Positions 4,400 to 52,804 of a DNA stretch of 64,000 bases are shown here, in pieces (within the stretch, counting starts at the first letter, position 1; each line of letters starts with the position of its first letter). The notes under the pieces were generated by a model. The model searched no databases and was not told where the DNA came from. It was given only the letters and a program-made list of their open reading frames with translations. This DNA comes from Chloranthus sessilifolius (Eukaryota > Streptophyta > Magnoliopsida > Chloranthales > Chloranthaceae). The DNA lies in assembly GCA_021018995.1 (NCBI GenBank), contig CM037596.1:69357367-69421366 (forward strand), given 5' to 3'. The translations under genes were made by a program, and so were the position numbers.

Positions 4400-4477
4400 G
4401 GCTAGAATACTGGGGATATCACTTTCGGGAACACATCTTCGGATGATCTGGTCGGCACAGTACTTGTATAGGATAGG

Positions 4478-16921: not shown

Positions 16922-16923
16922 TC

Positions 16924-24053: not shown

Positions 24054-25572
24054 TGTGCAACCGTGAGATTTTTAACGATTTCGTCGCGGCGATGCGCTCT
24101 CTAATAAAAATATAGAGGCGCCACCCAGAGCTTTTGGTGTCTCGGGAAATCTATATCATTTTTATAGGCACCAAAGTGCCACAAATATGACTCTGAATCT
24201 GGTCCACACCAAAGGCTCTTGGGTAGGGGCTTCGGTTATCGACCGGGAAGGTATTAGGCACCAAACAAAAATAAAATGAAAATAACACAAAAGTCTTCTT
24301 CTTGCCCAAAAGGCCCTAAAATCTTATTTGTGCCCCTCTGTCCCTACCGAAAAGTCGACAGCGTAACGACACAAATGTAAGGATGGAAGAAAAACTAAAA
24401 GAGATAGGAGAAGAAAGGGGAGAGCAGGAGCCCTCGGGCCCTTGTTGCACCATTGGAGAGCCTTACGTAGGCTTGCTTTGATGAGCTCTTAATGGCTTGT
24501 GTGATGAAAAATAGGGTTCTAAATCCTAGGGCTTGATGGCTAGGAGGTATAGAAGGAAGGCAAAGGGGTAGCACCTACCTAAACTAAGGTTTTTTTATGA
24601 AGGATAAGGCTTGGAAGAAAGTTGGGAAATCTGAAATTTGTGTGAAAAATAGCAACAAAGGGAGAAAGATCTTCTCACTCTAACCTCTTTCTCTCTTAAG
24701 CAATTTTTCCAACCTTTAATCCAAGGGGAGGGGGGGATCTATTTATAGGAAAAGGGTAGGTTAGGAGGCTACTTATATTCTAATTAGGGTTAGCAATTAG
24801 GTAATCTCTAATCTAAGGTTTCCTAGGATTTTGAGATCTTGGAGATGTGTGGGAATGGTTTTAATGGTGGATGATAGGTTGGTGTTTCAAATCACTTAAG
24901 GGTTGCAAATAGGCACTAAAAGGGTGCAAAAGAACTAGTAAAACACAGTGTAAAGGTCAAGGTGGTCAACAAGTCAAATCCCAATCACAAAATTTGGGTC
25001 AAAAACCAGAGGTTACTGTTCATATGCTTGGCGCAACTATTAGTTAAACCAGGCATATGCACAGTAAAATAGTGCCAGCATAGTGCATTTGGGAAGTTGA
25101 ATGCCCACGGGGGACCCACCTATAACTGGCGCAACAATTAGTCTCGCCAAATCCCTAAGGGGATTTTCCCAAAATTACAGCTTTGCCCTCTGGATTTGGA
25201 CCGCCATATATTTCCATACACAGCTTCGATTGGGGTGATTCTTGGCCCGTTGGAAAGATGACGACTTCTACTTTTCAATAGTATGAGATTTGATTATAGT
25301 AGAAGGTCGTAGCTAATCTCGATGCACCAGCCTTCATCCATTGCTCGAGAAAGTTTGGTTTAGGTCTGGGATGGGTTCTAAGGTTTGGGATTTGGTTTCT
25401 AAGGGTTTGGGAAAGTTCCTGGGGAATCTAGGGTGATTCCTAAGGGTTTGGACGGGTTCCTAAGATTTTGGAAAAGTTCCTAAGGGATCCATTCATGCCA
25501 TCAAAATCTCGGAAGTGTGCCTCTCTCGAAATGTATTTCGATCAGGCCATGGGCCAACTTTGGGTGTCTACA
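24054..25572 (-). repeat. Tat-A2 3' LTR (~1.52 kb)
   Basis: Starts TGTAGACACCC at 25572 and ends GGTTGCACA at 24054 in element sense. It is the same family as Tat-A1: U3 palindromes at 25026-25054 and 25126-25150, a TATA box at about 24739-24748, and the GGGTAGGGGCTTCGG block near 24226. Confidence 0.9.
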
Positions 25573-25581
25573 GATGCCACT

Positions 25582-28412: not shown

Positions 28413-30021
28413 TGTGCGACCATGGATTCTCTCGAACTCGTCGCGGCGATGCGCTAGCGATGGAATAAAATGTAGAGTCACCACCCGGAGCTTTTGGTGA
28501 CCCGGGAAACCTTTAAATCAATATTTTGAGCACCGAAGTGCTAAATATGACTCTGATTTACCGGTCTTTGACAAAGGCTTTAGGGTAGGGGCTTCGGTTA
28601 TCGATCGGGAAGGGTTTAGGCACCTGATCAACCCGCACGTAGCGGTCTCTATCTATGGCCAAAATAAAACAAATGGGCAGAGCTTCCCCTTGCCCGAAGG
28701 CAATACGGTCCTATCAAGCTTTGAGCCAAACCGAAATTTCAGTGGTGTAACAGCTTGAATCCTTGGATGGAGGAAACACCAAGAAGGTAGAGGAAGAGAG
28801 GGGTGAGCCGGAGCTCATGGGGCCTTGTTGCATCGTGGAAGACCTTCGCTTTGGCGTGCTTCCGATGGCTTTATATGGCTTAAACGGTAGAGGAATAGGT
28901 TCTAATGCTAGAATTCGGTCGATAGGAAGTGTAGGATGAAGCTAGGGACTAAGCTTGACTAAAAAGGGGTGATCTAATGGTTGAAAAGGGTTGAAAATGA
29001 TGAACTAAGTATGCTGGAATTCTGGTTGAAGAATGAAAAATAATATATATTTTTCTCTCACTAGGGCTCTCTCTCTTAAGCTTAACTTTCAACCTTAATT
29101 TTTCAACCCTTTTGGGAAGAGGGGGGCCTCTCTATTTATAGAGAAGAGGTGGGTTAGAGGGTTACTTAAGAGCTAATTGGTTTAGCAATTAGGTAATCCT
29201 TCATCTAAGGTTTTCTAGGTTTTTAGGGTCCTAGGGGTTTGGGAAACTGGTTTCAATGGCAGATGATGGGGTGAGACCATGGGTGACTTAAGGGTTGCCA
29301 ATAAGCTCAAAGGGGGTGTAACAAACCTTAAGACACCCACCTCAACCAAGGGGATGGTCAAAAGGTCAAACAGATGGAGGAAATTCAAGCATTTGATGAC
29401 AGTTACTGTAGCTAAGCTGGGCGTATATATTACATACGCCCAGTTTATGTACAGTGGTTTTCATGAAAACCAGAGGAGATCTGAGAAGGTGGGTGTCCGT
29501 GGTCGGCCCTACCTATGCTAGGCGTATGTATTATATACGCCCAGCCAAATTTGGCCCAAAAATGCCAGACATATATAATATATACGCCTGATCAAAATGG
29601 GGCCAAATTTGCTAGGCGTATCTAATACATAGCCTTAGCAAAAGTTATGATTTTATGTGAAACTTCAATCGGGCATAACGTTTGAACCACAACTACAAAT
29701 TGGGTGATCTTTAGCTTGCTGAAAAGCTGGAGAAGTCCTCCTTCTAATGGTACATGGCTCCTCCTCAGTAATGGTCTATGTAAAATGTTGTAGCTCTCCT
29801 CCCATCAATTGCTCAGAAGGGTTTAAATTGGGTCTAGGAAGGGATCCTAGGGTTTTAGGGGTGATCTGTAAAGGTTAGGGGAATGGTTCTAATGGGTTCA
29901 GGGTGATTCCTAAACGTCTGGTTTGGTTCCTAAGGGTTCAAGGGTGCCATCGAAATCATGGGGGTGCATCTCCCTCAGAGTACAGACTGATCGGGCCTTG
30001 GGTCGAATTTGGGTGTCTACA
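28413..30021 (-). repeat. Tat-4 3' LTR (~1.6 kb)
   Basis: Starts TGTAGACACCCAAATTC at 30021 and ends GGTCGCACA at 28413 in element sense. U3 contains four copies of the GGCGTATAT/ATATACGCC palindrome (29417-29443, 29517-29545, 29566-29590, 29611-29639). A TATA box (TATAAATAGAG) is at about 29131-29140. The U5 blocks match Tat-A1 and Tat-A2, but the palindrome sequence differs. Confidence 0.9.
29417..29639. repeat. Tat-4 palindromes in LTR U3
   Basis: Four copies, the first nearly perfect (CTGGGCGTATAT...ATACGCCCAG), the others with a few mismatches. The spacing is about 100, 49 and 45 bases. Confidence 0.88.
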
Positions 30022-31860
30022 GATGCTCGTCTTTGGTATTCGATCACTAATGATCGGACGCCAAAGACCAGAGACATCCGAAGACGTCCAAGGCACGTTT
30101 GATGGGTCTGCCAGGTTCAACTCAATTCTCAAACATCCATGGTGATGGTGAGTGTACGTAAGCCCTCTCATTTCGGGATATCGTCTGTACCTCAAAGCTA
30201 ACAGTTCCCAAGCGCATTGCGACATTACTGGGCATAACTATGACAATCACAGAAAGTGTAAGCCCGCTAGCTGGGATATCGTCCACTTCCCGAGGGAAAT
30301 TATAGATTTGTGATGTTGAGTATTAATCTGAACCAGACAGCTCCATGAAATGGGGTGATCGATCTATGCTTCAGGGTCGACGCGAAATACACAAAGCTAA
30401 GGCCTACAAATTGTGTCCAATCCTATGGGGTATCGACAGCTCCATTGGATTGGCCACGGGTGCCCTTACCTAGGTAAGGCTCAGAGTCTTTGGGCGAACC
30501 CAGCAACCTCGAGGTTGCTTTAGCATGATTTACCCGAGTGAAGCGAATATTGATGTCGCGACACTTCTTGGGAATGTATGCCCATTTTCAAAGTGAATTT
30601 TTGTGTGCTATTTTGTTTGAATTTTCTTTTGTTTCGAGGCCTCTAAGCAAAGCTCAAGGACCTCTGTCAATTTTATTCTTGTACAACTCTTTAAGTGGAT
30701 CAAATGCTAGTTGATACGCTTTAAGGGTGCGTGCACTCTACCGGGGAAAGGTACACCTTGGGGACGTGCACGTTCTAGCAATGAGGTACTCCTGATTCAC
30801 ACGAACCAGAGTGCCTTAACTCGAGACAAAGCTAAAAAATATCGGGCTAGGACCAAACATCCATCGAAAGAGATGATCAATTCTAGCCTCCATCCCTAAT
30901 GAAATCACATCTTACTAACTATGCACAGACAGACACTCATCAAGGGCGATAAGCAGCAAATAGGCGCGAACGAAAGCCTCAACCCTAAGGTACAATTTAC
31001 GAGGACAAACGATCATCCTGCGGATACGCAGACGCAAGTGCGTACATTCAACAGAGACACCATGCCTATACAGGTTTTAAGCCTGTGTAAAAGGAAATAA
31101 AAGGGAATGAGCCCTTTGGTCTGTATGTTTGCACATAGTTTGGTTGGTTGTAATTTCATTTTTGACGGGTCAATTTCAACTGACACTAGACTTTTCGAAT
31201 GATTTGAAGTCGGTTGCACTCTTGGTCAATCATAGATCAGAAGGTGGATGATCAGAGCCAAAGCTTGGAAGGTGGGGTCAACCTACTCAGGATTTTAACT
31301 ACATAACAAAAGATTGTTATCCCGAACCTTCTCCTTCTCTTTTTTTTTTCCTTTTTCTTCTTCTTCTTCTTTTTTTTTTCTTTTTTCTTTTGCACATGTC
31401 AGTTCGAGACTTTGAGCATGCTCAATCCATTTTTATTTTTGCATGTATCCTTGGGCAGACCAACTTGCCATGTTGATACACCTCAAGGATGTGCGCATTC
31501 CAGTGATAGGTCCTTGGTTTGCCTGCCGGATCAGGTCTCGCCTCATGTTGGAGAAGATTTTGGGTTAGGTGTATGTTCCTAGGAGCGACCGGTGATGGAC
31601 GAGTTTATTTGCCGGCCGAATCAGGCCTGAGGTGTCCCTGTGTAAAACAGGGTTTGAGAATTTTCGGGTGAACTCGATCATTACGAATTGATTTAACACG
31701 ACTCTCGGAGTGGGGCAAATAGGCGTTGTGATGCTCTTTTGAGAACTAGTGTCGTGTTTCAGGATTTTTTTTCTTTTTTCTCTCTTTTTGTTATTTTATG
31801 TGAATCTCTTTTCTCTCTTTTTTTTTTATGATTTTATGATTTTATGGGAGCACTCGGCGG
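30022..31860 (-). other. Tat-4 LTR-proximal 3' UTR
   Basis: Non-coding, homologous to 25573-27290 and, in part, 21890-22790. It contains a hairpin at 30031-30066 and a pyrimidine-rich run at 31330-31390. No ORF is conserved between copies. Confidence 0.7.
30031..30066. repeat. LTR-adjacent hairpin (Tat-4)
   Basis: Arms CTTTGGTATTCGATCA and TGATCGGACGCCAAAG, loop CTAA. Same place and size as 25582-25617. Confidence 0.85.
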
Positions 31861-31989: not shown

Positions 31990-32380
31990 CTTGATCTAGA
32001 GCATATAGAGGGCCTGTTGGGCCATTAAAGCCTAAAATTGGCTGGGCGTATATAATACATACGCCTAACAAATCTTCAGAAAAAATGGTCGGGCGTATAT
32101 ATTATATACGCCTGCTAGTTCTGCGAAAAAAATGGCCGAGCATATATATTATATACGCCTGACCAAAATCTGGCAGTTATGAAACTGCCCGAGCCCGAGC
32201 ACAAAAGGGGCCCTCTCTTTCAAATTCTATCTTCTTCCCTCCTTCCTTCTCAAGTTCGGGACAGCCCCCTAGGGTTTTTGCATTTGATTTTGTTTGAGTT
32301 CTATCACTGGGAGCCGTGTGTGCGGATCGAAAAAATGTTCATTCTCTACCGATTTTGGATCTATTTCTTCTCCCATTGAA
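31990..32380 (+). promoter_or_regulatory. Promoter and leader exon of the Tat-4 PMD gene
   Basis: Three Tat-4 palindromes (about 32040-32066, 32090-32116, 32135-32163) precede a pyrimidine-rich leader with CCCTAGGGTTTTTGC and a donor-like CATTGAAG|GTAATC at 32380. The following 600 bases are T-rich intron-like DNA ending TTTTCAG at 32985, just before an ATG. Confidence 0.6.
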
Positions 32381-35737: not shown

Positions 35738-35752
35738 AGGCGTATATATTAT

Positions 35753-35757
35753 ATACG
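35753..35757. repeat. Target-site duplication, left copy (ATACG)
   Basis: ATACG directly precedes the LTR tip at 35758, and the same five bases follow the other tip at 52673-52677. Both belong to a Tat-4 palindrome. Confidence 0.93.
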
Positions 35758-37628
35758 TGTTGAGAACTAGAAATTACAATTCTCCACCCTTTAACCTAGG
35801 CCTTGATAGACCCTTGAGAGAATTAAATAAGTGTTTTAAGTGCTTGTATTATAGCTAACAATAAAGACAGGCTTAACCATGAAAGTGGCCTAAAAGTGCC
35901 AAAAAAATGATGATCCATGTTGATCCAAAGGAAGAAAGAGAAGGGACAACCTCACTAGCTGTCAAAATGTCTGAACTGAAGAGGCAAAGACCTGGTCTCA
36001 ACCCAGAAAAGAAATGTGGAGCAATTCGAACAGAAGAATGCACTACAGAGTGCTTTTCGAAAAGAATCTGAACATTTCGAAAAGAACCTGAACTTTGCGA
36101 AAAGAACTAAAAGCTCCAGGCTTAGTTTTTGAAGAGCACCTGAACTCTTCGAAAGGATGTCTGACCTATTCGAAAAGAAGAGAACTCCTTGCGAACAGAA
36201 CCTGAACTTTGCGAAAAGAGCTTTAGAAGTCACAGTACCTTGCGAAAAGTTCCCCAAACTATGCGAAATGGTATTCTGGAGATTCCTAGCGTCTACAAGG
36301 ATAATTCAGTAATATTTTACACGCGCCCCAATGCATTTAAAAACCCAGGGACATTCCAGAAGATTCTGAGCACGAAGCAAAGGCATATTCCACCCCATGT
36401 GAGAGCCCGAAGATGAAATCCATTGGCGGGAACTTCTAGAAGTTCTAATAGATTTTTCGAGTTACATAACAGAATTGATGCTTCTTTCATCTAATTGGCT
36501 GAACCAAATCAAGCAATTCTAATTGGCCAAAACAGATCTGGATCCTCGTGCTTGACTACCATTGGTTGATATAGATCTGACCAATTCTGATTGGTCGATA
36601 CACATCTGAGCTAGACCTGGGGGAAACTATAAATAGATGAACCATTTGCCCAATTTGGGTGTCCAGATTTTGAGTTTCATTTCTGTTGCTCCATTTCCAA
36701 TTCAGATAGCTTGTCAGAAACTCTTGTAGTAGCCTAACTTTTACATGCAATTGAGAGCTGTGAGATACTTTTGTAATTCAAAAGAGAATTGTATTCAAGA
36801 CTACAAATCTGAGAGCTGTTTAAGCTATGCTCTGTAATTGTAATGGTGAATTTGAAAAGGTTGGTGTGAACCGTACGTTCTCAATTGGATTCCTGTTGAG
36901 GGTTCCCTGTGATCTCCTTATTGCACTAGACTCCTTTAGATTTACTATTTTTCAAGCAATTTCCCTTGATTCATTATCCCTGTGGGAATTAGTGTTTGTA
37001 ACCTAATCTTTCACAGCATTTGTAGTGGTGTTTCTTATTCTGAATTGAGGGTTCAGATTAAAGACTATTGGATGGTCTGTGGCCATTGAAGTGGACATAC
37101 CATAGCCATAAGTTTAACTCTAATCCTTGATTTAGATTACTTCCTCTTACATCTGTGCTTGTAGCCAGATGAAGATTGGATCATCTCTCATTTGATCTAC
37201 ATTTATTCTCATTTTATTTTAAGAATCAAATCAACGTTAGATATTATTTCTCCATTCTTATTAATTTATATCAAAATCTCCCCAACTCAGATCTGGATAA
37301 TTTAGTTTAATCTTTACTTTTATCGTTTAGTTAATGTGAAAAATTCAACCTCCCATCTTATGTGCTTTGTAGATAGGATCAGAGGCCAGATCTGGTAGCT
37401 CAGATTTGGAGGTTTATCTTACATTTTAAATAAATTCTCTGTGGACGATCTTTTACTCACTTATATTTAAAACTTGCTACAATTGGCCCTGACCTTGCAG
37501 GCGAATTTACTTCTCTCTGTGCTGATATTTCTTTATTCTTTTTAGTTTTCCAAATTCAGTACAATTTATTATTTGTAAGTCTGTTTTCAAAACACAAATA
37601 AATCATGCACACTTAGAAGTTAGCAACA
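35758..37628 (+). repeat. Athila-2 LTR, plus orientation (1871 bp)
   Basis: Starts TGTTGAGAAC and ends TTAGCAACA. A TATA box (CTATAAATAG) is at about 36628-36637. U3 between about 36000 and 36270 is dense in TTCGAAAAG and TTGCGAAAAG words. It is homologous along its full length to 40155-42026 in inverse orientation, about 95% by eye. Confidence 0.95.
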
Positions 37629-37634
37629 CGTTTT

Positions 37635-37652
37635 TGGCGCTGCTGCCGGGGA
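37635..37652 (+). promoter_or_regulatory. Athila-2 primer-binding site
   Basis: TGGCGCTGCTGCCGGGGA, six bases after the LTR end; tRNA-Asp type with two differences from TGGCGCCGTTGCCGGGGA. Confidence 0.85.
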
Positions 37653-37830
37653 ATTTGTTTTAAAATAGGTAGACCTAAGTTTTCATTTTGTTTTTATCTT
37701 TACATTGGTGCTAACTGTTCTATTGTTTAAATCTGTGCAGTTATCCATATACATTTTGAAGCGTGGAATCTACTTTAAAAGGAATTCTGAAGGTTTACTG
37801 TGCATAATTTGATTCTCGATTCTGTGTTGT

Positions 37831-39300
37831 ATGTTTGGTAGGAGGACTCTCAGCCCTGAGATTGTCCCTCTAAATTTAAAAGTTGAAAGGCTACTACGAA
37901 CCAGACAATCATCACAGAATTCTGTTGAAACAGCTACTATGGGTGAAGAACCTCGACTTTTGAGGGATTATTTTGCACCTGATACCTATAATTCTTCATT
38001 TTGCATTCAATTTCCTACTGTTAAAGGAAATTATGAGATCAAATCATCAACTATCCAAATGCTTCCTTCCTTCCATGGGTTGAGTAAGGAAGATCCATAC
38101 AAACATGTGGATGAATTCTTGTCTCTTTGCACCACATTCAACATAGCTGGACTTGGTCCAGAAGCAACCAAGCTTAGGCTCTTTCCTTTTTCATTAAAGG
38201 ACAAAGCTAGAGCATGGTTGTCTATGTTAGCACCAAACAGTATCACTTCTTGGAATGATTTGCAGTGTCAATTTTTAGCTAAATATTTTCCTATGGCTAA
38301 AACAAGCCAGTTGAGATAAAGTATTATTTCCTTCTCACAACATTCAACTGAAACTTTCCATGAAGCATGGGAAAGATTTAAAGAAATTTTAAGGCAATGT
38401 CCTCATCATCAAATCCCTCGATGACAGCTTGTTCAAAGCTTCTATCAAGGAATTGATCAAAAGGGCAAGAATATGGTAGATGCTTCCTGTGGAGGCACTT
38501 ACTTGAAAAAAATAGTTGAGGAGGTCTGGGATTTATTTGAAGTAATTGGTGAAAATTCAACTCAATAGGAATCTTTGTCAAGAGATATTGAGAATCTTGC
38601 TAGGTTAAACACTCAGCAAACCACCAAAGGAAAGATTTATGAGGTGAATGAGTTAGAAAGGAAGATGGATAATTTAACCACAAAGTTTGATAGATTGATG
38701 GACTCACTTAAAAATCCAATGGTTGCAAGAGTAGAGGAGGCATGTCTGATATGCCAGTCCCCTACTCATTCATATGATCAATGTCCTGCTGCACCACAGT
38801 TCCCAGATCTAGTGGTGGAACAAGCTCATGCTGCCCAATCATTTGGATAAATGCAGTCAAATGAATATGCATGGAGAGGGCACCCCAATTTAAGGTGGAG
38901 CTAGGGCAATTATCAATTGCAATAGTAGCAGCAATCAAAGAACCAAGTACCTTTCAAAACTGCTCAGCCTTATCAGCAGAATTTTTATACCAAGCCAACT
39001 TTTCAGCAGCCCATTCCACAACAACCTATATAGCAATCTGCTCCAGTTCAAGCCCCTTCCAGATCCCCTTCTTTTGAAGATCAAGTTCTAAATTCACTCT
39101 AAAATTTAAGGTCTTTAACTCAGACTGTAAACTTTCATAGTCAGAGCATAAAGAAGATTGAAGAAACATTGGGTCAACTTTCAAATACTTTGGCCAAAAG
39201 AGAGGAAGGAAGGTTACCCAGCCAACCTTTGAACAATCCCAAAGGACAGTTCATGGTTGGAGAGGCTTCTGTTTCACATGAAGAAGTAAAACTGTCACAA
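37831..39300 (+). pseudogene. Athila-2 gag, plus-strand copy
   Basis: Open 162-residue start (37831-38319) with the Gag core blocks IQMLPSFHGLSKEDP, KHVDEFLSLC and LRLFPFSLKDKARAWL. A second open frame (38575-38850) holds a coiled-coil-like part and a knuckle-like CLICQSPTHSYDQC pattern. A Gln-rich zone follows, homologous to the Athila-1 and minus-strand copies. About four breaks are present. Gag would package element RNA. Confidence 0.88.
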
Positions 39301-39526
39301 CTTTGAGAAGTAGAAGAATTGTAAATAACAAAGTGGGTACTGACAGAGAAGAAGAAAAAATTGAGGAAAATGATAGAGATATGCAGAGCAAACATGATGT
39401 TAGCATTAAAATGATGTACCTCTGAAAAATCAAAAAAATGAAAAATAGAAAAATCAAAAATATTCAAATGATGTTTCTAAAGTTGTAGATGAAGGACTAG
39501 TTCCGCATTTACCATTTCCTCATGCC

Positions 39527-40146
39527 ATGAAATCTACTTCCCCTTTTGATAAAGGGAACACAAAAATAGATGAAATGATGGAGACTTTCAAGCAAGTCAA
39601 GATAAATCTACCTCTGCCTGATGCAATCAAACAAATTCCAGCATATGCAAAATTTCTGAAAGATATTTGCACTCACAAAACACACTCTAGGATACAGTTA
39701 TCCAAGAAGGTCTTTGCAGTGGAAAGAGTTAATCAGGTGTTGTCCATTACCACACCTCCTAAACTTCAAGATCCTAGAATCCCCACAATCCCTTGCATTA
39801 TTGGGGAACATACCATTGAAAAGGCTTTATTAGATTTGGGTGCTAGTGTCAACCTGCTTCCATATTCTGTATATGAGAAACTAGGTTTGGGAGAATTAAA
39901 ACTCACTCATGTGGTTTTACAACTAGCAGACAGATCTAAAAGAAAGCCAGTTGGGATGATTGAGGATGTATTGATAGGAGTAGATAAGTTTTTCTACCCT
40001 GCTGATTTTCTGGTATTGGACATGGAACCTATAAAAAGCAAAACATCCATCCCTGTCATTTTGGGGAGACCATTCCTGGCTACAGCCAATGCTTGCCTTC
40101 AATGCAGGTCTGATATTATGGAAGTCTCTTTTGGAAATATGAAGGT
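39527..40146 (+). pseudogene. Athila-2 protease, plus-strand copy (cut at a rearrangement junction)
   Basis: The frame carries FDKGNTKIDEMMETFKQVK, then ALLDLGASVNLLPYSVYEKL (protease active-site loop) and VILGRPFLATANA. Similarity to the minus-strand copy (50135-50800) ends at about 40146, where the sequence passes into the LTR boundary at 40147-40155. Reverse transcriptase does not follow in this orientation. Confidence 0.88.
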
Positions 40147-40154
40147 CAAAAACT

Positions 40155-42026
40155 TGTTGCTAACTTCTAAGTGTGCATGATTTATTTGTGTTTTGAAAAC
40201 AGACTTACAAATAATGAATTGTACTGAATTTGGAAAACTAAAAAGAATAAAGAAATATCAGCACAAAGAGAAGTAAATTCGCCAGCAAGGTCAGGGCCAA
40301 TTGTAGCAAGTTTTAAATGTAAGTGAGTAAAAGATCGTCCACAGAGAATTTATTTAAAATGTAAGATAAACCTCCAGATCTGAGCTACCAGATCTGGCCT
40401 CTGATTCTATCTACAAAGCACATAAGATGGGAGGTTGAATTTGTCACATTAACTAAATGATAAAAGTAAAGATTAAACTAAATGATCCAGATCTGAGTTG
40501 GGGAGATTTTGATGTAAATTAATATGAATGGAGAAATAATATCTAATGTTGATTTGGTTCTTGAAACAAAATGAAAATAAATATAGACCAAATGAGAGAT
40601 GATCCAATCTTCATCTGGCTACAAGCACAGATGTAAGAGGAAGTAATATAAATCAAGGATTAGAGTTAAACTTATGGCTATGGTATGTCCACTTCAATGG
40701 CCACAGACCATCCAATAGTCTTTAATCTAAACCCTCAATTCAGAACAAGAAATACCACTACAAATGTTGTGAAAGATTAGGTTACAAACACTAATTCTCA
40801 CAGGGATAATGAATCAAGGGAAATTGCTTGAAAAATAGTAAATCTAAAGGAGTCTAGTGCAATAAGGAGATCACAGGGAATCCTCAACACGAATCCAATT
40901 GAGAACATACGGTTCACAGCAACCTTTTCAAATTCTCCATTACAATTACAGAGCACAGCTTAAACAGCTCTCGGATTTGTAGTCTTGAATACAATTCTCT
41001 TTTGAATTACAAAAGTATCTCACAGCTCTCAATTGCAAGTAAAAGTTAGGCTATTACAAGAGTTTCAGACAAGCTATCTAAATTGAAAATGGAGCAGCAT
41101 AAATGATAACTCAAAATCTGGATACCCAAATTGGGAAAATGGTTCATCTATTTATAGTTTCCCCCAGGTCTAGCTCAGATGTGTATCGACCAATCAGAAT
41201 TGGTCAGATCTGTATCAACCAATGGCAGTCAAGCACGAGGATCCAAATCTGTTTTGGCCAATCAGAATTGCTTGATTTGGTTCAGCCAATCAGATGATAG
41301 AAGCATCAATTCTGTTATATAACTCGACAAATCTGTTAGAACTTCTAGAAGTTCCCGCCAACTGATTTCATCTTCGGGTGCTCACATGGGGTGGAATATG
41401 CCTTTGCTTTCTGCTCAGAGTCTTCAGGAATGTCCCTAGGTTTTTAAATGTATTGGGGCGCGTGCAAAAGATTACTGAATTACCCTTGCAGACGCTAGGA
41501 ATCTCCAGAATACCATTTCGCATAGTTTGGGGAACTTTTCGCAAGGTACTGTGACTTCTGAAGCTCTTTTCGTAAATTTCAGGTTCTGTTCGCAAGGAGT
41601 TCTCTTCTTTTCGAATAGGTCAGACATCCTTTCAAAGAGTTCAGGTGCTCTTCGAAAACTAAGCCTGGAGCTTTTAGTTCTTTTCGCAAAGTTCAGGTTC
41701 TTTTTGAAATGTTCAGATTCTTTTCGAAAAGCACTTTGTAGTACATTCTTCTGTTCGAATTGCTCCATATTTCTTTTTTGGGTTGAGACCAGGTCTTTGC
41801 CTCTTCAGTTCAGGCATTTTGACCGCTAATGAGGTTGTCCCTTCTCTTTCTTCCTTTGGATCAACATGGATCATCATCTTTTTGGCACTTTTAGGTCGCT
41901 TTCATGGTTAAGCCTATCTTTATTGTTAGCTGTAATACAAGCACTTAAAACACTTATTTAGTTCTCTCAAGGGTCTATCAAGGCCTAGGTTAAAGGGTGG
42001 AGAATGGTATTTTCTAGTTCTCAACA
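40155..42026 (-). repeat. Athila-2 LTR, minus orientation (1872 bp), internal
   Basis: Element sense: TGTTGAGAAC at 42026 to TTAGCAACA at 40155. The TATA box is at plus 41148-41157 and the TTCGAAAAG-type cluster at about 41515-41770. A polypurine tract abuts one side (42027-42038). The other side has the spacer bases (CAAAAACT, plus 40147-40154) that normally join the LTR to the primer site. Confidence 0.95.
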
Positions 42027-43993
42027 CACCCCCAAACCTAAGCTTTGCTAGTCCCTGAGCAAAAGATAAAATTAAAAATAGAATAAAAAACCACTTTTGT
42101 AGGGAACACAGTTGCATTTAGCATATGCAACAAGCCTTTTAAACCCCGAGGTGATCCCTAGTGGAGGAGTGAAGTCTCTTGAGGGTTTTCAGTGAAGGTA
42201 CCCACAAACTTCTCCAATAAATTTGTGAATATCAATGTAGTTCTGTTAAAGCAGAATTTTATCCAGTCAGGTTATTCACACCTGCATCAGTCAAGCTGTA
42301 AAAAGATCTTTAAAAAAAACATTAGTTTAAAACTAAAATTCAGTTGTAATTCCTTTTGCCATTCACTTAGTTGGTGTCAAAAAGATTTTATAAGAAAAAT
42401 TAATGAAAAGCTTGCCTTCTATTTGAAAATTCAGTTTTGATGTTACCCCAAATAATTTGATTTCAAACTCAACTCTTACCAGGGTTTTCACTCACCATGC
42501 AAATATGAGGGTTGTACTATTTCACACAACTCAAGAGCAATTATAGTCCTCAAATAGGACTGTAAGCAAGAGCATAGGCATTGCTTTTCAGTTCTGAATC
42601 TACTGCTCTTTTCTCCATAGATTACACAAATCCTTATCTCCATGTGACAGCTCAATCCATCATTGATCAGTAAGGACTTTGATTTGGGTGGTACTGTGGC
42701 TTATGAGTGAACTTTATCAAGAATAAAGAGGTGGAATGGAGTTCAAAATTGAGAAGTCAGTCAAGGTAAGGAAGTGGGAGACACATCTTCTTTATTTCAG
42801 CACAATTTCATATTCTTCTTGGAATTTTCAGAGCCAAAGTGGCCATCTTTTTCTCTTTCTTTTTTTAAATTCCCAATGACATGACTTTTTTTGACTTTTT
42901 TCCTTTTCAAAGCAACATTGACTGGAGTACAACATTTCTTTCATTGATACATCATTGCCTTCAGTTATTTTTCTTCTTCTTTTACCAAACTATTACCCAA
43001 CTCTCCTTTCTTCAGCTTCCTTTCCTTTACCTTCTGAATTTTCAAAGTGAGGGTTAGGCTCAATGAGGTTGATTAGGTTGGTTGATGAGGTTACAAAGAA
43101 ATCTTGGGTTTATAAGGCTCAACTGGTGTGTATCAAAGGCAGTTTCAAAAGGTGGGGCTTTTTGAAGTTCAAACTGTCCAAAAGGAGGCCTTACATCATG
43201 TCTTTAATATCATGATTGCTGTCAAGTTATTTCAATTTGAATATGTGTAACTTCTAGTGATAGTAAGCAGGTTCAAATAGTCCCTAGAGCTGAAAAAATT
43301 GCCAATTCATATCTCCAAAGAATACATTTCAGGCCCAAGTCTCACTGGGTGTAGTTTTCTATCAAATTCCTGAGGTATATCATCACTGTTTTCTCTCCTT
43401 TTAGGTTTACTAAAACATCAATTTTTATTTTGAAAATTTTCTGACATTCCCTTCATGAAGGTATTGGAATTACACTAAAAATCAGTTTTAAAAGTTTTAA
43501 CTTCCTCATTTTTCAGGTGTGAAATCACTTTATTTTAAAAAATTCTACTGATGATCAGTTGCATTAATGTTAACTCAATTATTGGCATTTCTGCCACACC
43601 CCCAAACCTATGGTGAGCAGGGTCCGCACTGGTCCGAAGTGTATTAGCAAAGAAAAGAAACAAGCAACCAGAAATCATAATGACAAGAAGAAAGAAAAGA
43701 AATGCACAATGTATGTACAATGTATTAACACAAAACCAAAATTTTATATTATAGATTCATAAAACAGATATGTACAATGGATTCTAATAACTGGAGTCAA
43801 AGTCTGTATCATAAGTTGGTTCAATGGGATCAGAACTGGAGTCACTGTCAGAGTTAGAATTAGAATCAGTATTGGAGTCTGAACTCGATTTGGCCTTTTC
43901 CTAGATTGTGGCTTGCAGCTCGGTGTATTCCTCATCTTTGATCTTTTTAGTGAGGCCAATATACTTTTCAAGTCTAGTAGTCCTCAATTTTTC
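42027..43993 (-). other. Athila-2 polypurine tract and 3' UTR
   Basis: The purine tract (42027-42038 on the minus strand) is followed by about 1.9 kb without conserved coding sequence, parallel in layout to 607-2381 of Athila-1. Confidence 0.7.
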
Positions 43994-45108
43994 CTATTCA
44001 AGCTGTGCTTGCAACATGGTAACCTTGTGCTGCTCACTCCTAATCATCTGAAAAGTTTGGCCCAGCAGGTCCTGCATCTTCTCCCTCTCAAATTTCATGA
44101 ACAACTCCAATTTTCGAATCTGGTCTTCATAAGTGGTTCTAATGTAAGCTTGCAGATCAGCTAACCCCTTGAGAACATCACGACAGATATAAGGGTTCTC
44201 TTCCATGTCCCTTTTGAGAGTGGCAAATCTGGGAATGGGAATGGAATGGTAGGGGACCAAAGGTATCTTAGCTATGGGAGTGGGAGAAGAGGAGTCCAAA
44301 AGAATGACCTTAGGGTCGGTCTGAGTGGCTTGATCAGAAAAAGTGAGGAGAGGTGAAGGGGACTCAATAGGAAATACCTCAGGTTCTGTTTGGGTAGCAT
44401 GGGCAGTAGTGGTGAGGGTGGGTGGATCAATAAATGCTACCTCAGGTTCTGTTTGGGTAGCATGGTGATCAACAGCAGGTACAGTGGCTAAAGTAGTTGT
44501 GTGGGATGTGGAGGCTAAGGTTTGGAGAAGGGCATTGGTCACAGACTGATTGTCTATGTTGATCTGTAGTTGGGCTTGGATGGATTGGAGAAAGGTAAAT
44601 ATTCGGCTAATTGATTCAGGTGTGGGTGTGGTATGCATAGTAGGGACTAGTAAAACTGAAGTGGATGGTTGAGGTGCAATGGGTGAAATTGTTGTAGAGG
44701 GTGAAGTAGCCAAATGAATGAAATGAGGAGGGTCAGGTATAGGGACAGATTCAAGCCCAATATTCTCTAAAATAGATCCCATCAGTGATGAATAGGCCTC
44801 TGTAGTGAATATCTCAGGTTCAGTTTGGGTATGAGTTACTTCAGGTGTATGAGTTAAATGAGCAGGTGAACCTGAGAAGCTTTGGAGAAGGGGGGTGCTT
44901 TGAGATGGTTCGACAAAATCTGGGGCCATATCTTGGTCATTGTTAGGAGAAATTGGTGGTGTGAGTATGGCTGGAGTAGATGGTGTAGAGGAGGAATGCA
45001 GAGGATTATGTTGGTTATGGGAGATGGGATTGCTTGAATTGGTGCAAGAATAGGAGTTGGGCTAGGTGAGGTAGGTAAGATGACAATTTCTTCAAGAAGG
45101 TGCACCAA
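43994..45108 (-). CDS. Athila-2 third ORF, C-terminal part with TQT motifs and coiled coil
   Basis: The 311-residue frame 43994-44929 (MAPDFVEPSQ...) is open. It is a Ser/Thr/Pro-rich, probably disordered protein with four TQT motifs (THTQTEPEI at residue 34; HATQTEPEV at 158 and 179; QATQTDPKV at 202), then a C-terminal coiled-coil-like stretch (IRKLELFMKFEREKMQDL, about 265-311). A further frame upstream (44854-45108) continues the Pro/Ser-rich style. There is no signal peptide or membrane segment, so nothing supports an envelope protein. A second copy lies at 51557-52628 in the opposite orientation, about 94% alike at protein level by eye. The role is unknown. Confidence 0.6.
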
Positions 45109-45178
45109 GAGCTGGACACTGACAGATGGACAGCTTGCTCAATGTCATAGAGGTAAAATAGGTGCACTAAAGAGCTGG

Positions 45179-46384
45179 TCACCTCTGTGGTCCTGCAAAG
45201 TAGGTTCTAGGTAATGCTAGGGCGGGTTCACTAGCACTGCAGGCGTGCTCCACTTCCTCCCTCATTCTATTCAACATTGCTTGACTTGTAGTCCAAGCCT
45301 TTTTCCCAAAAGCATGAGGAGAAATAACTTCAAATGGTTCTTGCTCATCAATGTCAAATTTGGCTCTTAGTAGGGCTGTGATCAGCCTACCAAATGGTAT
45401 TCCAGCTAATTTCTGCTCCTTTTTCAGCTTGGTACTAATATCAGCCATGGCTTCAAAAATCAACATAGGGGCATTAAAGAATTACCCCTTAAAAAAATGA
45501 AAGAGAGCCTCTAAAATTGGTGTCCTCCTTTCTTGGCTGTGCCCAGTGACTTAAAAACATCCCCTCAAAATAGAATCCATCAGTAAAAATTGAGGTGCTA
45601 AGTCTCTCCTCATGATGGATTGTCCAGTTCCAACTATGCCTTGGGTTAAATGTGCAACCATTTCTCTAAAAGAGGCTGTTTCTGGTGCGGCCAATGGACC
45701 AGTAGGATCATATTGAAATGGTATCCCCAAAGCATTCCCAATGTCTTCATAAGTGATAGTTAAATCGCAATCATCAATGAAAATAACAAGAGTAGGGACA
45801 TCGGCATCCTTCTCTGTCACTTTTACCAAGTTTTGGTACCATAATCTCACCATTCGTGGATAAATTTTTTTTGGAAGAGGGGTTAAGATAATGCTCAGTG
45901 AGGCATTCCTAATGTATTTCAAAGATAACTGACATTCAGGTTTGTTGTAGAAAAAAGTTTCATCCACGATAAGCTCTGGGATCAGCTTCTGAGCTTCAAT
46001 GAATGGGTTTGGCAGTACCAAATGCATAGGGAGAGGAGGGAGCTCAGGCTCAGGACTAGGGTCAGATGCTGGGATGGGTTCCTCATGTCTAACCTTCTTC
46101 CCCTTCTCAATTTTATCTGCTTTATCCATCAAAAGTTTTCTCTTGGCTGAAACTTTGGTTTTTCCTTTTTTGGACGGTTTGCTAATTTTCTTAGCAGAAG
46201 ATTTTTTGAACATTTCAGCCAATGATTTTTCAGCTTTCCCCATTCTAAAGCTTTGTATAAAAAACTCCCACAATAAATGTTGACACCAAATCAAACTTTG
46301 CAAATGATAAACAGAGGAAATGCACAGAAAAATACCGAAATCTAGGGTTTTGGTTGAACTCTCTGAACGCTTGATGAGATCCAC
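45179..46384 (-). CDS. Athila-2 third ORF, N-terminal part (plant transposon-protein-like domain)
   Basis: The 277-residue frame 45551-46384 is open. A start at residue 48 (MGKAEKSLAEMFKKSSAKK, about 46243) looks more natural than the first Met. After a Lys-rich, NLS-like segment (KKISKPSKKGKTKVSAKRK) comes a folded-looking domain (NPFIEAQKLIPELIVDE, YPRMVRLWYQNLV, YEDIGNALGIPFQYDP) that resembles the 'putative plant transposon protein' domain seen in plant retroelement extra ORFs. A second frame (45179-45466) continues (KLAGIPFGRLITALLRA). The zone is broken about once or twice. A nuclear DNA- or RNA-binding role is only a guess. Confidence 0.6.
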
Positions 46385-46539
46385 CAGAATCAGAAGCGAA
46401 ATGTCCCTCTCTTCAAGCTTTATTAGTGGAACAAATATGAAACAAATGGGATCTGAACTTTAAAAGCACACAGAGATGGAACGAAAATGGGTTTTCTGTG
46501 AAACAGGACATTCAGGGAAGGCTTTCGAATATGAAACCC

Positions 46540-46830
46540 CTGCTTCGAAAGGGTTTAAATATGCTTAAAACGAGTTTCGCAAAGTATCTTTGAAATTTTG
46601 AAAAGTTCAACATAGTCCTTTTTTATAAGTGAGAATGGCATCAGTACCATTCGAAAAACACATGGCTTCAGAAACAACATTTCGAAAAGCAAATAGCTTC
46701 AGAACTAACTATTCGAAAAGCAAATAGCTTCAGAACTAACTATTCGAAAAGCAAATAGCTCTTTTCGATCAGTTAGTTACAGGGCCAGATCCTCTTCGAA
46801 CAGAAAATTGAACTTTTTGAAATGAATTTT
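46540..46830 (-). promoter_or_regulatory. Promoter-like stretch ahead of the Athila-2 third ORF
   Basis: Tandem ATTCGAAAAGCAAATAGC units (about 46680-46770) and other TTCGAA words, then TATTTAAA on the minus strand (plus about 46553-46560), then the third-ORF starts. The same TTCGAAAAG words fill this element's U3. Promoter function is inferred. Confidence 0.45.
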
Positions 46831-46970
46831 TTTTCTTTGCGAACTCATTTTTTCACATATTATAAACTTCTCGAATTGAGTGTACACAAGACTAAAAACA
46901 GAGAGCAAACAACTATGCAAAAATTATAAAACAAGCACTGGAAAAATACATATGATACAGTTGTTTATCA

Positions 46971-48203
46971 TCAGATATGTGGAGGTTCTTGGTGATAGAT
47001 GGTCAGCACAGGCTCCAGAGTATTTTCAATGCATGGTTTGAGCCTCTGACCATTTACTTTCAAGATTTTCCCATCACTTGGGTCTAAAATTTCAACAGCC
47101 CCAGAAGGTGATGCATGAATGACAGTATATGGCCCTTCCCATCTGGATCTCAGCTTTCCTGGAAAAAATATAAGTTTTGAATTAAATAGCCATACCTTAG
47201 AGCCAGCTATGAACTCTCTTCTCAGCAGATTTTTGTCATAGAAAGCTTTAACTTTTTCTTTGTAAGATCTTGCATTGGTGTATGCATCCATTCTCAGCTC
47301 CTCCAACTCAGCAAGCTGCAGTTTCCTGTGATTACCAGCAGTAGTAAGATCCATGTTCAAGGTTTTAATAGCCCAAAAGGCTTTATATTCTAACTCCACT
47401 GGTAAATGGCATGCTTTGCCATAGACCAATCTGAATGGGGACATGCCAATTGGGGTTTTATAGGCAGTCCTATATGCCCACAATGCATCATTCAGCTTAG
47501 AGGACCAATCCTTTCTGTCCTTCTTCACAGTCTTTTCCAGTATATGTTTGATTTCTCTATTGGAAATCTCCACTTGTCCACTAGTCTGTGGATGATATGG
47601 AGTAGCTACTCTATGAGTCACAGAGTACTTTTTCAATAAAGCTTCAAAATGTTTATTACAAAAATGGTTTCCCCCATCACTGATAATAGCTCTGGGGGAA
47701 CCAAACCTGGAAAAAATGTCGTCTTTTAAAAATTTCAAGACAACTCTATGATCATTGGTTTTAGTGGTTGTGACTTCAACCCATTTGGATACATAATCCA
47801 CAGCTACTAAGATAAAATTACAACCATTGGAAGGAGGAAAGGGACCCATGAAGTCTATCCCCCAAATATCAAACAATTCAACTACCAAAATGGGTTGTAA
47901 AGGCATTGAGTTTCTCTTGGAAATGCTGCCCAATCTCTGACAGTTCTGACAAGACTTACAGTGCTGCAGTGCATCTTTGAAAAGTGTAGGCCAATAAAAT
48001 CCACATTGCAAAACCTTTGCAGCAGTTTTGTTTCCACTAAAATGACCTCCACAGGCCTGTTCATGACACATAGAAAGTATGCTATGAAAGTCTTCTTCAG
48101 GGACACATCTTCTTATTATTTGGTCTGCACAAATCTTGAACAGATAAGGATCCTCCTCCCAAATAAAATGTTTAACCTTTGAGAAGAAAAGATCTTTATC
48201 CAT
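46971..48203 (-). CDS. Athila-2 integrase
   Basis: Open frame of 410 residues. Integrase joins element ends to target DNA. Visible: the HHCC zinc module (H47, H54, C85, C88), the catalytic core with D117 (WGIDFMGPF), D176 (IISDGG) and E212 (GQVEISN), which is the D,D35E spacing, and a C-terminal domain with [20 protein letters not shown] and [17 protein letters not shown]. It starts 6 bases after the RNase H frame ends, as expected for one polyprotein. It is one of the best-kept frames in the window. It does not show that the composite is active. Confidence 0.92.
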
Positions 48204-48209
48204 TTTATT

Positions 48210-49612
48210 CTAATGTTGAGGAGTTCTTCCAGTAGCCAAAAAGTTGACTAAGTTTGCAAACCAAGGGATGTGTATACTGATAGCAAAAAGTTGCTCATCA
48301 GGGAAAGATTCATTGATAGGCAGCCTATCAATCTCAGCAGTTAAAATTCTAGACAGGTGATCAGCCACCACATTCTCCACACCCTTTTTATCTTTGATCT
48401 GTAAATCAAACTCCTGTAATAGGAGGATCCACCTGATTAATCTTGGTTTGGTATCCTTCTTAGACAAAAGGTATTTCAAGGCTGAGTGGTAAGTGAACAC
48501 CACTATTTGTGAACCCAAAACATATGACCTGAATTTCTCTAAAGCAAAAACAATTGTCAGCAACTCCTTCTCAGTTGTTGTGTAATTAAGCTGTGCATCA
48601 ATCATTAATCTACTGGCATAAGCTATGACATGAGGCAGCTTATCCTTTCTCTGTCCAAGAACAGCTTCCAAAGCATAATCTGATGCATCACACATCAGTT
48701 CAAAAGGCAGTGAATAATCTGGAGAGTGTAATATTGGAGCTGAAATCAAATAGTTTTTTACGAATTCAAATGCCTTCAAGCATTCATTGTTGAAAACAAA
48801 AGGGACATCTTGGCACAATAACTGACAAAGAGGCTTGGATATTTTACTGAAGTCCTTAATGAACCTTCGAGAATCCAAAGATGTCCCAGAAAACTTCTGA
48901 TCTGTTTAACAGTTTTGGGAGGTGGCAAATGTGCAATTAAATCAATTTTTGCTCTGTCCACCTCAATGCCCTTGTGGGAGACAACATGGCCAAGGACAAT
49001 GCCTTGGGTGACCATGAAATGGCTCTTCTCCCAGCTCAAAACTAGATTGGTTTCTTCACATCTCTGTAACACCAATTTGAGATGATGTAAACACTGGGAA
49101 AAACTGTCTCCATAGATTGAAAAATCACCCATAAAAATTTCCATAAATTGGTCAATCATATCAGAGAAAATGGAGTACATGCATCTTTGAAAGGTAGCAG
49201 GAGCATTACAAAGACCAAAAGGCATTCTTCTATAGGCAAAAGTGCTAAAAGGGCAAGTGAATGTGGTCTTTTCCTGATCTTGTGGATACACATGAATCTG
49301 GTTGTAACCAGAGTAACCATCAAGAAAACAGTAATAAGCTTTTCTTGCTAGCTTATCTAAAATTTGATCAATGAAGGGAAGAGGGAAATGGTCTTTTCTG
49401 GTCATTGTGTTTAGTTTTCTGTAATCAATACAGACCCTCCAACCAGTTATTTGTCTAGTTGACATAAGCTCACCAGAATCTGAGGTTACAACAATGATCC
49501 CAGATTTCTTAGGTACCACCTGTGTAGGTGCCACCCAAGCTGAATCTGAAATGGGGTAAATGACCCCTGCATCCAACAACTTAACAACCTCTTTCATGAC
49601 CACTTCTTGCAT
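48210..49612 (-). pseudogene. Athila-2 reverse transcriptase and RNase H
   Basis: Frame 48776-49612 covers RT: WRVCIDYRKLNTMTRKDHFP, YCFLDGYSGYNQI, the palm segment around SIYGDSFSQCLHH, and KTVKQIRSFLGHL. Frame 48210-48878 covers the connection and RNase H (ELMCDASDYALEAVLGQR, LTIVFALEKFRSYVLG, KKGVENVVADHLSRI). There is a single RNase H, as in Athila. The domain order and spacing are normal, with about one break between the frames. Confidence 0.9.
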
Positions 49613-49734
49613 ATGAGGATTCAGCCTCCTTTACATTTTCCTAGAAGGCTTTGCATCTTCTTTCAAATGAATTTTATGAATGCAAACAGCTGGACCGATT
49701 CCTCCCAAATCAAAGAATAGTCCTAATTGCTTTC

Positions 49735-50800
49735 TTATCGTTTCAATACATCAATACTCTTCCTCCCCGCTTCCTTAGTGAGGGAGGAAGAAATAATCGT
49801 AGGCAATGTTTTATGGTCTCCTAAAAACACATATTTCAAATTTTCTGGCAACTGCTTTAGCTCTATATTAGGTGGGCTAAGAAAAGAAGGTAACAAAGGT
49901 ACCTTGGCTGTTTGTGGAAGGGGAAGAATAGCAGGTTTCCATGAAGAGAACCTTACTGATTGATCATGAGTTCCTTGCACAGCATTTACTTTCTCAGTCT
50001 TTGAGGTACAAAATATTTCTTCCTCAGCATTCCCCCAAGCATCTTTAAAATCTGTGGTTAAATCTTCACACTGCAGAAACTGTGGTAGAGTCTCTTCCAC
50101 CAGTTCATCCAATAGATCAACAAGAAAACATTCCTCAAATCGAATTGAGGTCAGGATCTGCATTATAAACATTTAATTTCACCTTCATATTTTCAAAAGA
50201 GACTTCCATAATACCAGACCTGCATTGAATGCAAGCATTGGCTGTAGCCAGGAATGGTCTCCCCAAAATGACAGGGATGGAAGTTTTACTTTTTGTAGGT
50301 TCCATGTCCAATACCAGAAAATCAGCAGGGTAGAAAAACTTATCTACTCCTACCAATACATCCTCAATCATCCCAACTGGCTTTCTTTCAGATCTGTCTA
50401 CTAGTTGTAACACCACATGAGTGGGTTTTAAGTCTCCCAAACCTAGTTTCTCATATACAGAATATGGAAGCAGGTTGACACTAGCACCCAAATCTAATAA
50501 AGCCTTTTCAATGGTATGTTCCCCAATAATGCAAGGGATTATGGGGATTTCAGGATCTTAAAGTTTAGGAGGTGTGGTAACGGACAACACCTGATTAACT
50601 CTTTCCACAGCAAAGACCTTCTTGGATAACTGTATCCTAGATTGTCTTTTGTGAGTGCAAATATCTTTCAGAAATTTTGCATATGCTGAAATTTGTTTGA
50701 TTGCATCAAGGAGAGGAAGATTTATCTTGACTTGCTTGAAAGTCTCCATCATTTCATCTATTTTTGTGTTCCCTTTATCAAAAGGGGAAGCAGATTTCAT
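49735..50800 (-). pseudogene. Athila-2 protease and linker, minus-strand copy
   Basis: Frames 50558-50800 (FDKGNTKIDEMMETFKQVK) and 50135-50491 (GASVNLLPYSVYEKL...VILGRPFLATANA) are the protease; 49735-50172 is the acidic linker to RT. The plus-strand copy at 39527-40146 is about 95% alike by eye. About two breaks are present. Confidence 0.88.
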
Positions 50801-51061
50801 GGCATGAGGAAATGGTAAATGCGAAACTAGTCCTTCATCTACAGCTTTAGAAACATCATTTGAATTTTTTTTATTTTTCTGAGGTACATCAGCACCCCCA
50901 ATGCTAACATCATGCTACTCCTGCTGCATATCTCTATCATTTTCCTCAATTTTTTCTTCTTCTTTGTCAGTACCCACTTTGTTATTTACAATTCTTCCAC
51001 TTCTCAAAGTTGTGACAGTTTTTACTTCTTCATGTGAAACAGAAGCCTCTCCAACCATGAA

Positions 51062-51556
51062 CTATCCTTTGGGATTGTTCAAAGGTTGGCTGGGTAACCT
51101 TCCTTCCTCTCTTTTGGCCAAAGTATTTGAAAGTTGACCCAATGTTTCTTCAATCTTCTTTATGCTCTGACTGTGAAAGTTCACAGTCTGAGTTAAAGAC
51201 CCTAAATTCTGGAGTGAATTTAGAACTTGATCTTCAAAAGAAGGGGATTTGGAAGGGGCTTGAACTGGAGCAGATTGCTGTACAGGTTGTTGTGGAATGG
51301 GCTGCTGAAAAGTTAGCTTGGTATAAAAATTCTGCTGATAAGGCTGAACAGTTTTGAAAGGTACTTGGTTCTTTGATTGCTGCTGCTGTTGCGATTGATA
51401 ATTGCCCTGGCTCCACCTTAAATTGGGGTGCCCTCTCCATGCATATTCATTTGACTGCATTTGCCTAAATGATTGGGCAGCATGAGCTTGTTCTACCACT
51501 AGATCTGGGAACTGTGGTGCAGCAGGACATTGATCATATGAATGAGAATGGTAAGA
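51062..51556 (-). pseudogene. Athila-2 gag, minus-strand copy (3' part only)
   Basis: The frame carries SYDQCPAAPQFPDLVVEQAH, a Gln-rich spacer, and the coiled-coil-like LGSLTQTVNFHSQSIKKIEE. Gag similarity stops at about 51545; upstream gag, leader, primer site and most of a 5' LTR are missing in this orientation and are replaced by an inverted third-ORF segment. Confidence 0.85.
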
Positions 51557-52628
51557 TGACCAGCTCTTTAGCTGCACCTATTTTACCTACAACTGACATT
51601 GAGCAAGCTGTCCTTCCCGTGGTGTCAAGCTCTTCAGCTGCACCCCTTCTTGAAGAAATTGTCATCTTACCTACCTCACCTAGCCCAACTCCTATTCTTG
51701 CACCAATTGAAGCAATCCCATCTCCCATAACCAACATAATCCCCATTGCAGATTTCTCCTCTACACCATCTACTCCATCCATACTCACACCACCAATTTC
51801 TCCTAACAATGACCAAGATATGGCCCCAGATTTTGTTGAACCATCTCAAAGCATCCCCCTTCTCCAAAGCTTCTCAGGTTCACCTGCTCATTTAACTCAT
51901 ACACCTGAAGTAACTCATACCCAAACTGAACCTGAGATATTCACTACCGATGCCTATTCATCACTGATGGGATCTATTTTAGAGAATATTGGGCTTGAAT
52001 CTGTCCCTATACCTGACCCTCCTCATTTCACTCATTTGGCTACTTCACCCTTTACAACCATTTCACCCAATGCACCTCAACCATCCACTTCAGTTTTACC
52101 AGCCCCTACTATGCATACCACACCCACACCTGAATCAATTAGCCAAATATTTACCTTTCTCCAATCCATCCAAGCCCAACTACAGATCAACACAGACAAT
52201 CAGTCTGTGACCAATGCCCTTCTCCAAACCTTAACCTCCACATCCCACACAACTACTTTAGCCACTGTACCTACTGTTGATAACCATGCTACCCAAACAG
52301 AACCTGAGGTAGTATTTGTTGATCCACCCACCCTCACCACTACTATCCATGCTACCCAAACATAACCTGAGGTAGTTCTTATTGAGTCCCCTTCACCTCT
52401 CCTCACTTTTTCTGATCAATCCACTCAGACCGACCCTGAGGTCATTCTTTTGAACTCCTCTTCTCCCACTCCCACAGCTGAGATACCTTTGGTCCCCTAC
52501 CATTCCATTCCCATTCCCAGATTTTCCACTCTCAAAAGGGCCATGGAAGAGAACCCTTATATCTGTCGTGATGTTCTCAAGGGGTTAGCTGATCTGCAAG
52601 CTTACATTAGAACCCCTTATGAAGACCA
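51557..52628 (+). pseudogene. Inverted duplicate of the Athila-2 third-ORF segment
   Basis: Plus-strand copy of about 44100-45175, starting GACCAGCTCTTTAG and ending GAAGACCAG. It encodes the same Ser/Thr/Pro-rich protein with TQT motifs (THTQTEPEI, NHATQTEPEV, IHATQT). It runs directly into 44 bases of LTR. About one or two breaks are present. Confidence 0.88.
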
Positions 52629-52672
52629 GCCCAGGTTAAAGGGTGGAGAATGGTATTTTCTAGTTCTCAACA
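52629..52672 (-). repeat. Athila-2 LTR tip, 44 bases, minus orientation
   Basis: Identical or nearly so to 41983-42026 (CAGGTTAAAGGGTGG...CTCAACA). It forms the right end of the composite and is followed by the ATACG duplication. Confidence 0.93.
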
Positions 52673-52677
52673 ATACG
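52673..52677. repeat. Target-site duplication, right copy (ATACG)
   Basis: Matches 35753-35757. Confidence 0.93.
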
Positions 52678-52703
52678 CTTGGCAAAACTTTTGGGATTTT
52701 GCC

Positions 52704-52804
52704 TTGGCGTATATAATATATACGCCCAGCAAATTATCTGACATGTTGCCTTGGCGTATATATTATATACGCATCGTATAACCGGGCTCGACGGGTTCTT
52801 TATA
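52704..52804 (+). promoter_or_regulatory. Promoter-like stretch of the DUF7745-like cargo gene
   Basis: Two Tat-4 palindromes (52704-52730, 52751-52773), with a third at the insertion site just upstream (35738-35757 joined to 52678), then TTTATAAC at about 52797-52804 and a pyrimidine-rich leader. Confidence 0.5.

Follow-up and report, generated by a model that had tools for sequence, protein, structure and literature searches.

The window, i.e. the whole stretch of 64,000 nucleotides from Chloranthus sessilifolius that was analysed, contains at positions 35758-52672 a 16.9 kb composite of the Ty3/gypsy type (Athila-like) that exposes an outward-facing U3 tip of an LTR at either end. The reading we favour, to which we assign a probability of about three in four, is that it stems from one linear, misjoined cDNA that was integrated a single time through two U3 ends. 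The element appears to be a rare fossil of cDNA copies that were misjoined before insertion. An earlier note on this DNA had likewise proposed a single molecule and one integration via two U3 tips, and this proposal is upheld by the 5-bp target duplication, by a palindrome and a 47-bp period that are restored in the target, and by the exactness of the tips. The term "head-to-head" used in that note is better replaced by "tail-to-tail", because the halves point toward each other, i.e. they are convergent.

The composite is bounded by perfect copies of the target-site duplication ATACG at 35753-35757 and 52673-52677, just as had been stated. The left piece points to the right (plus strand) and starts with a left LTR (35758-37628) that turns its U3 tip outward and has kept spacer and primer-binding site (PBS) on its inner side. 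The PBS (37635-37651, plus strand) is complementary at 15 of 17 bases to the 3' end of what we take to be the tRNA-Asp sequence, and is followed by leader, gag and a protease piece (37652-40146, plus strand) with stops and frameshifts, in which the Pfam families Retrotrans_gag and Asp_protease_2 are recognized. Eight bases on the minus strand (40147-40154), the reverse complement of AGTTTTTG, make up junction 1 and lead into a middle LTR in the opposite orientation (40155-42026, minus strand). On one side of this LTR the transition from PPT to U3 is normal, with a reverse-complemented purine-rich stretch at 42027-42038 (minus strand) that probably serves as polypurine tract; on the other side, U5 borders on the spacer. 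The interior of the main left-pointing element (42027-51546, minus strand) comprises the third ORF, integrase, RNase H, reverse transcriptase, protease and gag up to the break; this copy lacks the 5' part of gag, the PBS and almost the entire 5' LTR. Beyond it lie the ten-base filler AATGGTAAGA of junction 3 (51547-51556), an inverted third-ORF piece (51557-52628, plus strand) that is 95% like 44120-45184, and a right U3 tip of 44 bases (52629-52672, minus strand). The two tips, read as 35758-35801 and 52672-52629, are inverted relative to each other and agree at 41 of 44 bases (93.2%), as expected from the inverted U3 tips that had been claimed for both outer ends. The internal order that had been described, with LTR, gag and protease pointing right, a nearly whole element pointing left and an inverted third-ORF piece, is recovered upon self-comparison, in which three inverted pairs emerge: the LTRs (35757-37636 with 42027-40147, 95.4%), gag/protease (38765-40150 with 51546-50177, 93.6% with gaps counted) and the third ORF (44120-45184 with 52629-51554, 94.8%).

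Pfam matches were obtained for five of the nine ORFs scanned, and those in the main copy are RVT_1, RT_RNaseH, Integrase_H2C2 and rve. The integrase follows RNase H, which is the domain order of gypsy elements, and LTRs of the TG...CA type, PBS, polypurine tract and 5-bp target duplication are all present, in agreement with Ty3/gypsy. A tRNA-Asp-type PBS is characteristic of the Athila lineage, and the one at 37635-37651 is of this type (15 of 17 bases); we thus call the composite Athila-like, a name that is based on general features of that lineage. Relatives of the integrase among the best 120 of 8000 sequences scored include those from Tanacetum, Malus, Prunus, Vitis and others. The third ORF (43994-44929, minus strand) encodes 311 amino acids, resides between integrase and the 3' LTR and by eye is rich in proline, serine and threonine; it matches no Pfam family, and none of 3959 candidates qualifies as a homologue at E<=0.001. 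A tandem repeat of 3.6 copies of a 31-bp unit at 46649-46760 contains TTCGAAAAG, and LTR repeats at 36055-36107 and 41677-41731 likewise hold TTCGAAAAG or a similar sequence.

The target site provides support for a true 5-bp duplication that is independent of the element itself. At the base composition of the window, a 5-bp match would arise by chance with a probability of about 0.0011. When the flanks are joined at one ATACG, the palindrome GGCGTATATATTATATACGC is complete and is followed by two further such palindromes; in the joined flanks the 20-bp palindromes start at offsets 99, 146 and 193 with 0, 1 and 0 mismatches, i.e. with a constant period of 47 bp. The array continues to the right of the composite at 52706-52772 with units at 52706 and 52753. 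Uninterrupted 47-bp spacing of such palindromes is also found at 32045/32092/32139 and at 29521/29568; an additional copy, at 29420, does not share this phase. With palindrome and period restored, the site looks as if a single integration had taken place and no target DNA had been lost. Palindrome arrays with 47-bp period and diverged spacers occur at 15958-16084, 29420-29640, 32034-32160 and 35739-35757 with 52673-52772, the last of which received the composite; the array at 15958 features another palindrome core with the same period. The window also harbors three diverged repeat blocks in the same orientation (16921-18498, 24051-25579 and 28437-30238), about 66-77% alike, which perhaps constitute an older repeat family.

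At junction 1 (40146/40147) the protease sequence runs through GGT into CAAAAACT and then into the reversed end of the LTR; in LTR sense this reads CAACA-AGTTTTTG-ACC. The left LTR of the composite meets its PBS with CAACA-CGTTTTTGGCGC. A related left-pointing element occupies about 1-11758 and shares some 71% of its sequence with the main copy over 3352-7103; its LTRs measure about 2.5 kb (5' LTR at 9225-11758; the 3' LTR is truncated by the start of the window), and its PBS at 9202-9218 is again of the tRNA-Asp type. Its LTR-PBS border at 9202-9237 reads CAACA-AGTTTTTGGCACC and matches AGTTTTTG exactly. The stretch thus corresponds to the six-base U5-PBS spacer plus the first two bases of the PBS. 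Minus-strand synthesis starts at the PBS border, and the six spacer bases form the raw end of unintegrated cDNA; they are removed upon integration, and a chromosomal 3' LTR lacks them and ends at CA. The spacer bases retained at junction 1 belong to such a raw U5 end and not to a normal 3' LTR. The two bases past the spacer may represent the CCA end of the tRNA, a microhomology or a point change. Some caution may be advisable here, as the match is short with 8 bases and even the composite's own left LTR has one mismatch to it (C for A), and the central LTR could instead come from a chromosomal tandem element that was broken in the PBS. A nested insertion was considered and rejected: what adjoins the middle LTR is U5-PBS spacer sequence and not that of the protease of the main copy, which reads differently at this position.

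The filler of junction 3 can be tiled by a 10-mer from the U3 tip and an antisense 11-mer from the third ORF with overlaps of three bases. Among control fillers, 5.5% of the shuffled and 2.4% of the random ones can be tiled equally well, and with overlaps of four bases the tiling of the observed filler fails; we therefore regard evidence for a templated filler as weak. The match to the U3 tip is uncommon, as only 0.7% of 17148 random 20-base stretches of the element contain one as long. At junction 4 (52628/52629), at most one base is shared by eye. A processed LTR end is found at none of the three inner misjoined junctions.

All three duplicated stretches have diverged to the same extent, with differences at 84 of 1870 (4.5%), 61 of 1356 (4.5%) and 50 of 1057 (4.7%) ungapped aligned sites in LTR, gag/protease and third ORF, respectively (p=0.95 for homogeneity), close to the estimate of about 5% made by eye. 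The ratio of divergence between the third ORF and LTR plus gag is 1.05 (95% range 0.76-1.43), i.e. within error the inverted copy of the third ORF does not differ in age from the other duplications, which suggests that the right-hand rearrangement took place at or near the time of insertion. We counted 39 non-synonymous and 11 synonymous differences in 433 gag/protease codons (pN/pS 0.97) and 34 and 4 in 327 codons of the third ORF (pN/pS 2.87), after dropping alignment blocks of fewer than 60 columns and choosing the frame with the fewest stops. The combined pN/pS of 1.46 gives no sign of purifying selection; the value for the third ORF exceeds the simulated neutral range of 0.45-2.16 but is based on 4 synonymous changes, and for gag the neutral simulation covered 519 bases. 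The gag/protease region contains six stops in the left and two in the middle copy, and the third ORF one in the right and none in the middle copy.

Differences of the C/T type affect 61 of 366 cytosines in CG/CHG context compared to 69 of 1345 in CHH context (p=1.6e-11, with C assumed to be ancestral). With the related element as outgroup, a single stretch of 621 columns (about 70% alike) could be polarized: the left copy carries 11 derived changes and the middle copy 10, with 4 unplaced. Of these 21 placed changes, 11 are of the type C>T or G>A, and 3 go in the reverse direction. A wider count of 24:24 with 9 unplaced was not used, since in about 700 of its columns the similarity to the outgroup was no more than 56%. 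This pattern fits copies that were near-identical at insertion and have decayed since in presumably methylated DNA. The equal divergence, the CG/CHG excess and the lack of purifying selection make the two diverged parents that had been postulated unnecessary, and are compatible with one parent or two very similar ones. At substitution rates of 7e-9 to 1.3e-8 changes per site and year, the insertion would be roughly 1.8-3.4 million years old.

On this basis, the following course of events can be envisaged. A cDNA would have possessed its raw U5 end, with six spacer bases and about two bases of PBS/tRNA origin, prior to integration. This end would then have been linked to a sister cDNA that was broken in the protease and stemmed from the same parent or one nearly identical to it, and the decay patterns likewise suggest near-identical sequences as the substrate. 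A tail-to-tail join of this kind would leave a U3 tip on either outside. The main copy would have had its 5' part exchanged at around that time for an inverted, copied third-ORF piece together with 44 terminal U3 bases; the three segments are equally diverged, which dates the duplications alike. Finally, integrase would have paired the two U3 tips like normal ends and generated the 5-bp duplication. The anatomy, the target duplication, the continuity of the target, the spacer at junction 1 and the equal divergence can be read from the sequence itself, and we infer that the joins preceded integration and that integrase made use of both U3 tips. The right U3 tip is that of a canonical left-pointing element, and it is thus only the left end that is abnormal in kind. 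More tentatively, with the odds somewhat against so specific a version, a plant integrase may have carried out a natural concerted two-U3 integration after host end joining had consumed the U5 end at the site of the tRNA primer and left two tRNA-templated bases behind.

The most serious competitor, in our view unlikely, accepts the single integration and concerns the joining step only: strand switching of reverse transcriptase within the particle would have built the whole molecule. Minus-strand synthesis would have halted in gag and moved to U3, next to the third ORF within its own strand and finally to the U3 end, and the other strand would have been extended beyond the U5 end and onto a sister cDNA. 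Complexes with direct repeats and target duplications have been explained by template switching in a published model (PMC1950507), and the near absence of homology at junction 4, the two exact pieces that tile the junction 3 filler and the rarity of its U3-tip match are in line with it. The tiling is weak in view of the shuffled and random fillers that do as well, and templated end joining leaves identical marks. Furthermore, the template of the left piece can probably not have been genomic RNA because a full U3 is present. The central junction coincides with the raw U5 end of a cDNA, a position that is in favour of a joined cDNA terminus, and end joining appears slightly more probable than all else there, polymerase switching being the lesser candidate. 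For the replacement on the right-hand side, polymerase switching or templated end joining is possible. The strand switching that the earlier note had put forward is thus retained as a possibility chiefly for the two right-hand junctions and is less favoured for the central one. Self-integration, which had been offered as the other route, is rejected. It is a known source of internally rearranged circles in retroviruses (PMC3148978), where the products are circles; processed LTR ends are joined to internal sites in this process, and the inner misjoins of the composite carry none. We rank it as the least probable of all explanations.

A canonical left-pointing element might have been rearranged in the chromosome after insertion by break repair and templated copying. 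The right U3 tip is positioned as in such an element, and the right-hand replacement alone could be due to break repair, but the left piece would have to fall exactly between target duplication and U5 end, the U5 would need to acquire its spacer, and the inverted copy of the third ORF shows no clear sign of a younger age than the other duplications; we consider this improbable. A touch less probable still are two insertions in opposite orientation that were later fused by deletion or rearrangement, the 5-bp match being a coincidence helped by the repeated target. The target is indeed a short array of near-identical palindromes, and two insertions that hit it in one phase would re-create the period as well. 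Yet hitting the same position of the 47-bp unit twice, and in opposite orientation, is improbable in itself, internal fusions would be needed, one of them at a landmark of a cDNA end, and the duplicated stretches are equally diverged. An assembly error that merged several copies of the family is very improbable, as the three inner junctions share little sequence, unlike typical repeat-driven misjoins, and the outer flanks form a perfect duplication with the period kept.

If integration of one misjoined cDNA is the correct reading, the locus documents what is otherwise difficult to observe in plants: a raw U5 cDNA end as it existed before trimming by integrase, the joining of cDNAs to one another before integration, and the ability of integrase to use two U3 ends. 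Misjoined cDNA dimers would then be viable substrates for integration and a source of long inverted-repeat loci. The two 1.87 kb LTRs of the composite are about 95.5% alike, inverted and 2.5 kb apart; as a speculation, read-through RNA from the left LTR could fold back on itself as a long hairpin that contributes to silencing the family. The signature of an outward U3 tip at both ends, a target duplication and the spacer at an inner LTR enables a straightforward genome-wide count.

Concerted integration of two U3 ends is carried out by retroviral integrase in vitro. The pairing would be alike in the composite, which is a natural chromosomal insertion, whereas laboratory substrates were used in vitro. 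Alternative end joining of LTR-retrotransposon cDNA guided by the PBS has been described for mdg4 from fly and IAP from mouse (cited in PMC12786077). There, a cDNA end is joined near the PBS as in the composite; the products are mainly one-LTR circles, in contrast to the linear inverted dimer discussed here. Retroviral autointegration has internally rearranged reverse transcripts in common with the composite, but its circles arise by attack of processed LTR ends on internal sites (PMC3148978), and no such junction exists in the composite (none of three inner misjoins). Truncated and chimeric cDNA circles and insertions of EVD have been found by long reads in Arabidopsis mutants (PMC10462705). 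They resemble the composite as aberrant LTR-retrotransposon DNA, and two truncated insertions have clear target duplications; every truncated insertion there has two LTRs, in contrast to the composite. The words "inverted" and "head-to-head" are absent from its main text, as are these and "autointegration" from the main text of a nanopore study of Arabidopsis circles (PMC10255303).

The closest relatives are the complex LTR elements from Triticeae, rice and maize that Sabot and Schulman (2007; PMC1950507) attributed to template switching, the only on-point paper among the matches listed in the open-licence literature; an inverted two-U3 plant composite is not reported among these matches. Four composites with one target duplication are described there; they have two complete cores, a further LTR inside and outermost LTRs that resemble each other, and no such complex element is recorded for Arabidopsis. 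The Chloranthus composite resembles them in being a multi-LTR element with a single flanking 5-bp duplication, consistent with an aberrant cDNA integrated once. It departs from them in that its cores are partial and its right outer LTR is a 44-bp tip. The published elements are drawn in one direction, while the composite has inverted parts, two U3 ends and an inner LTR with a U5-PBS spacer.
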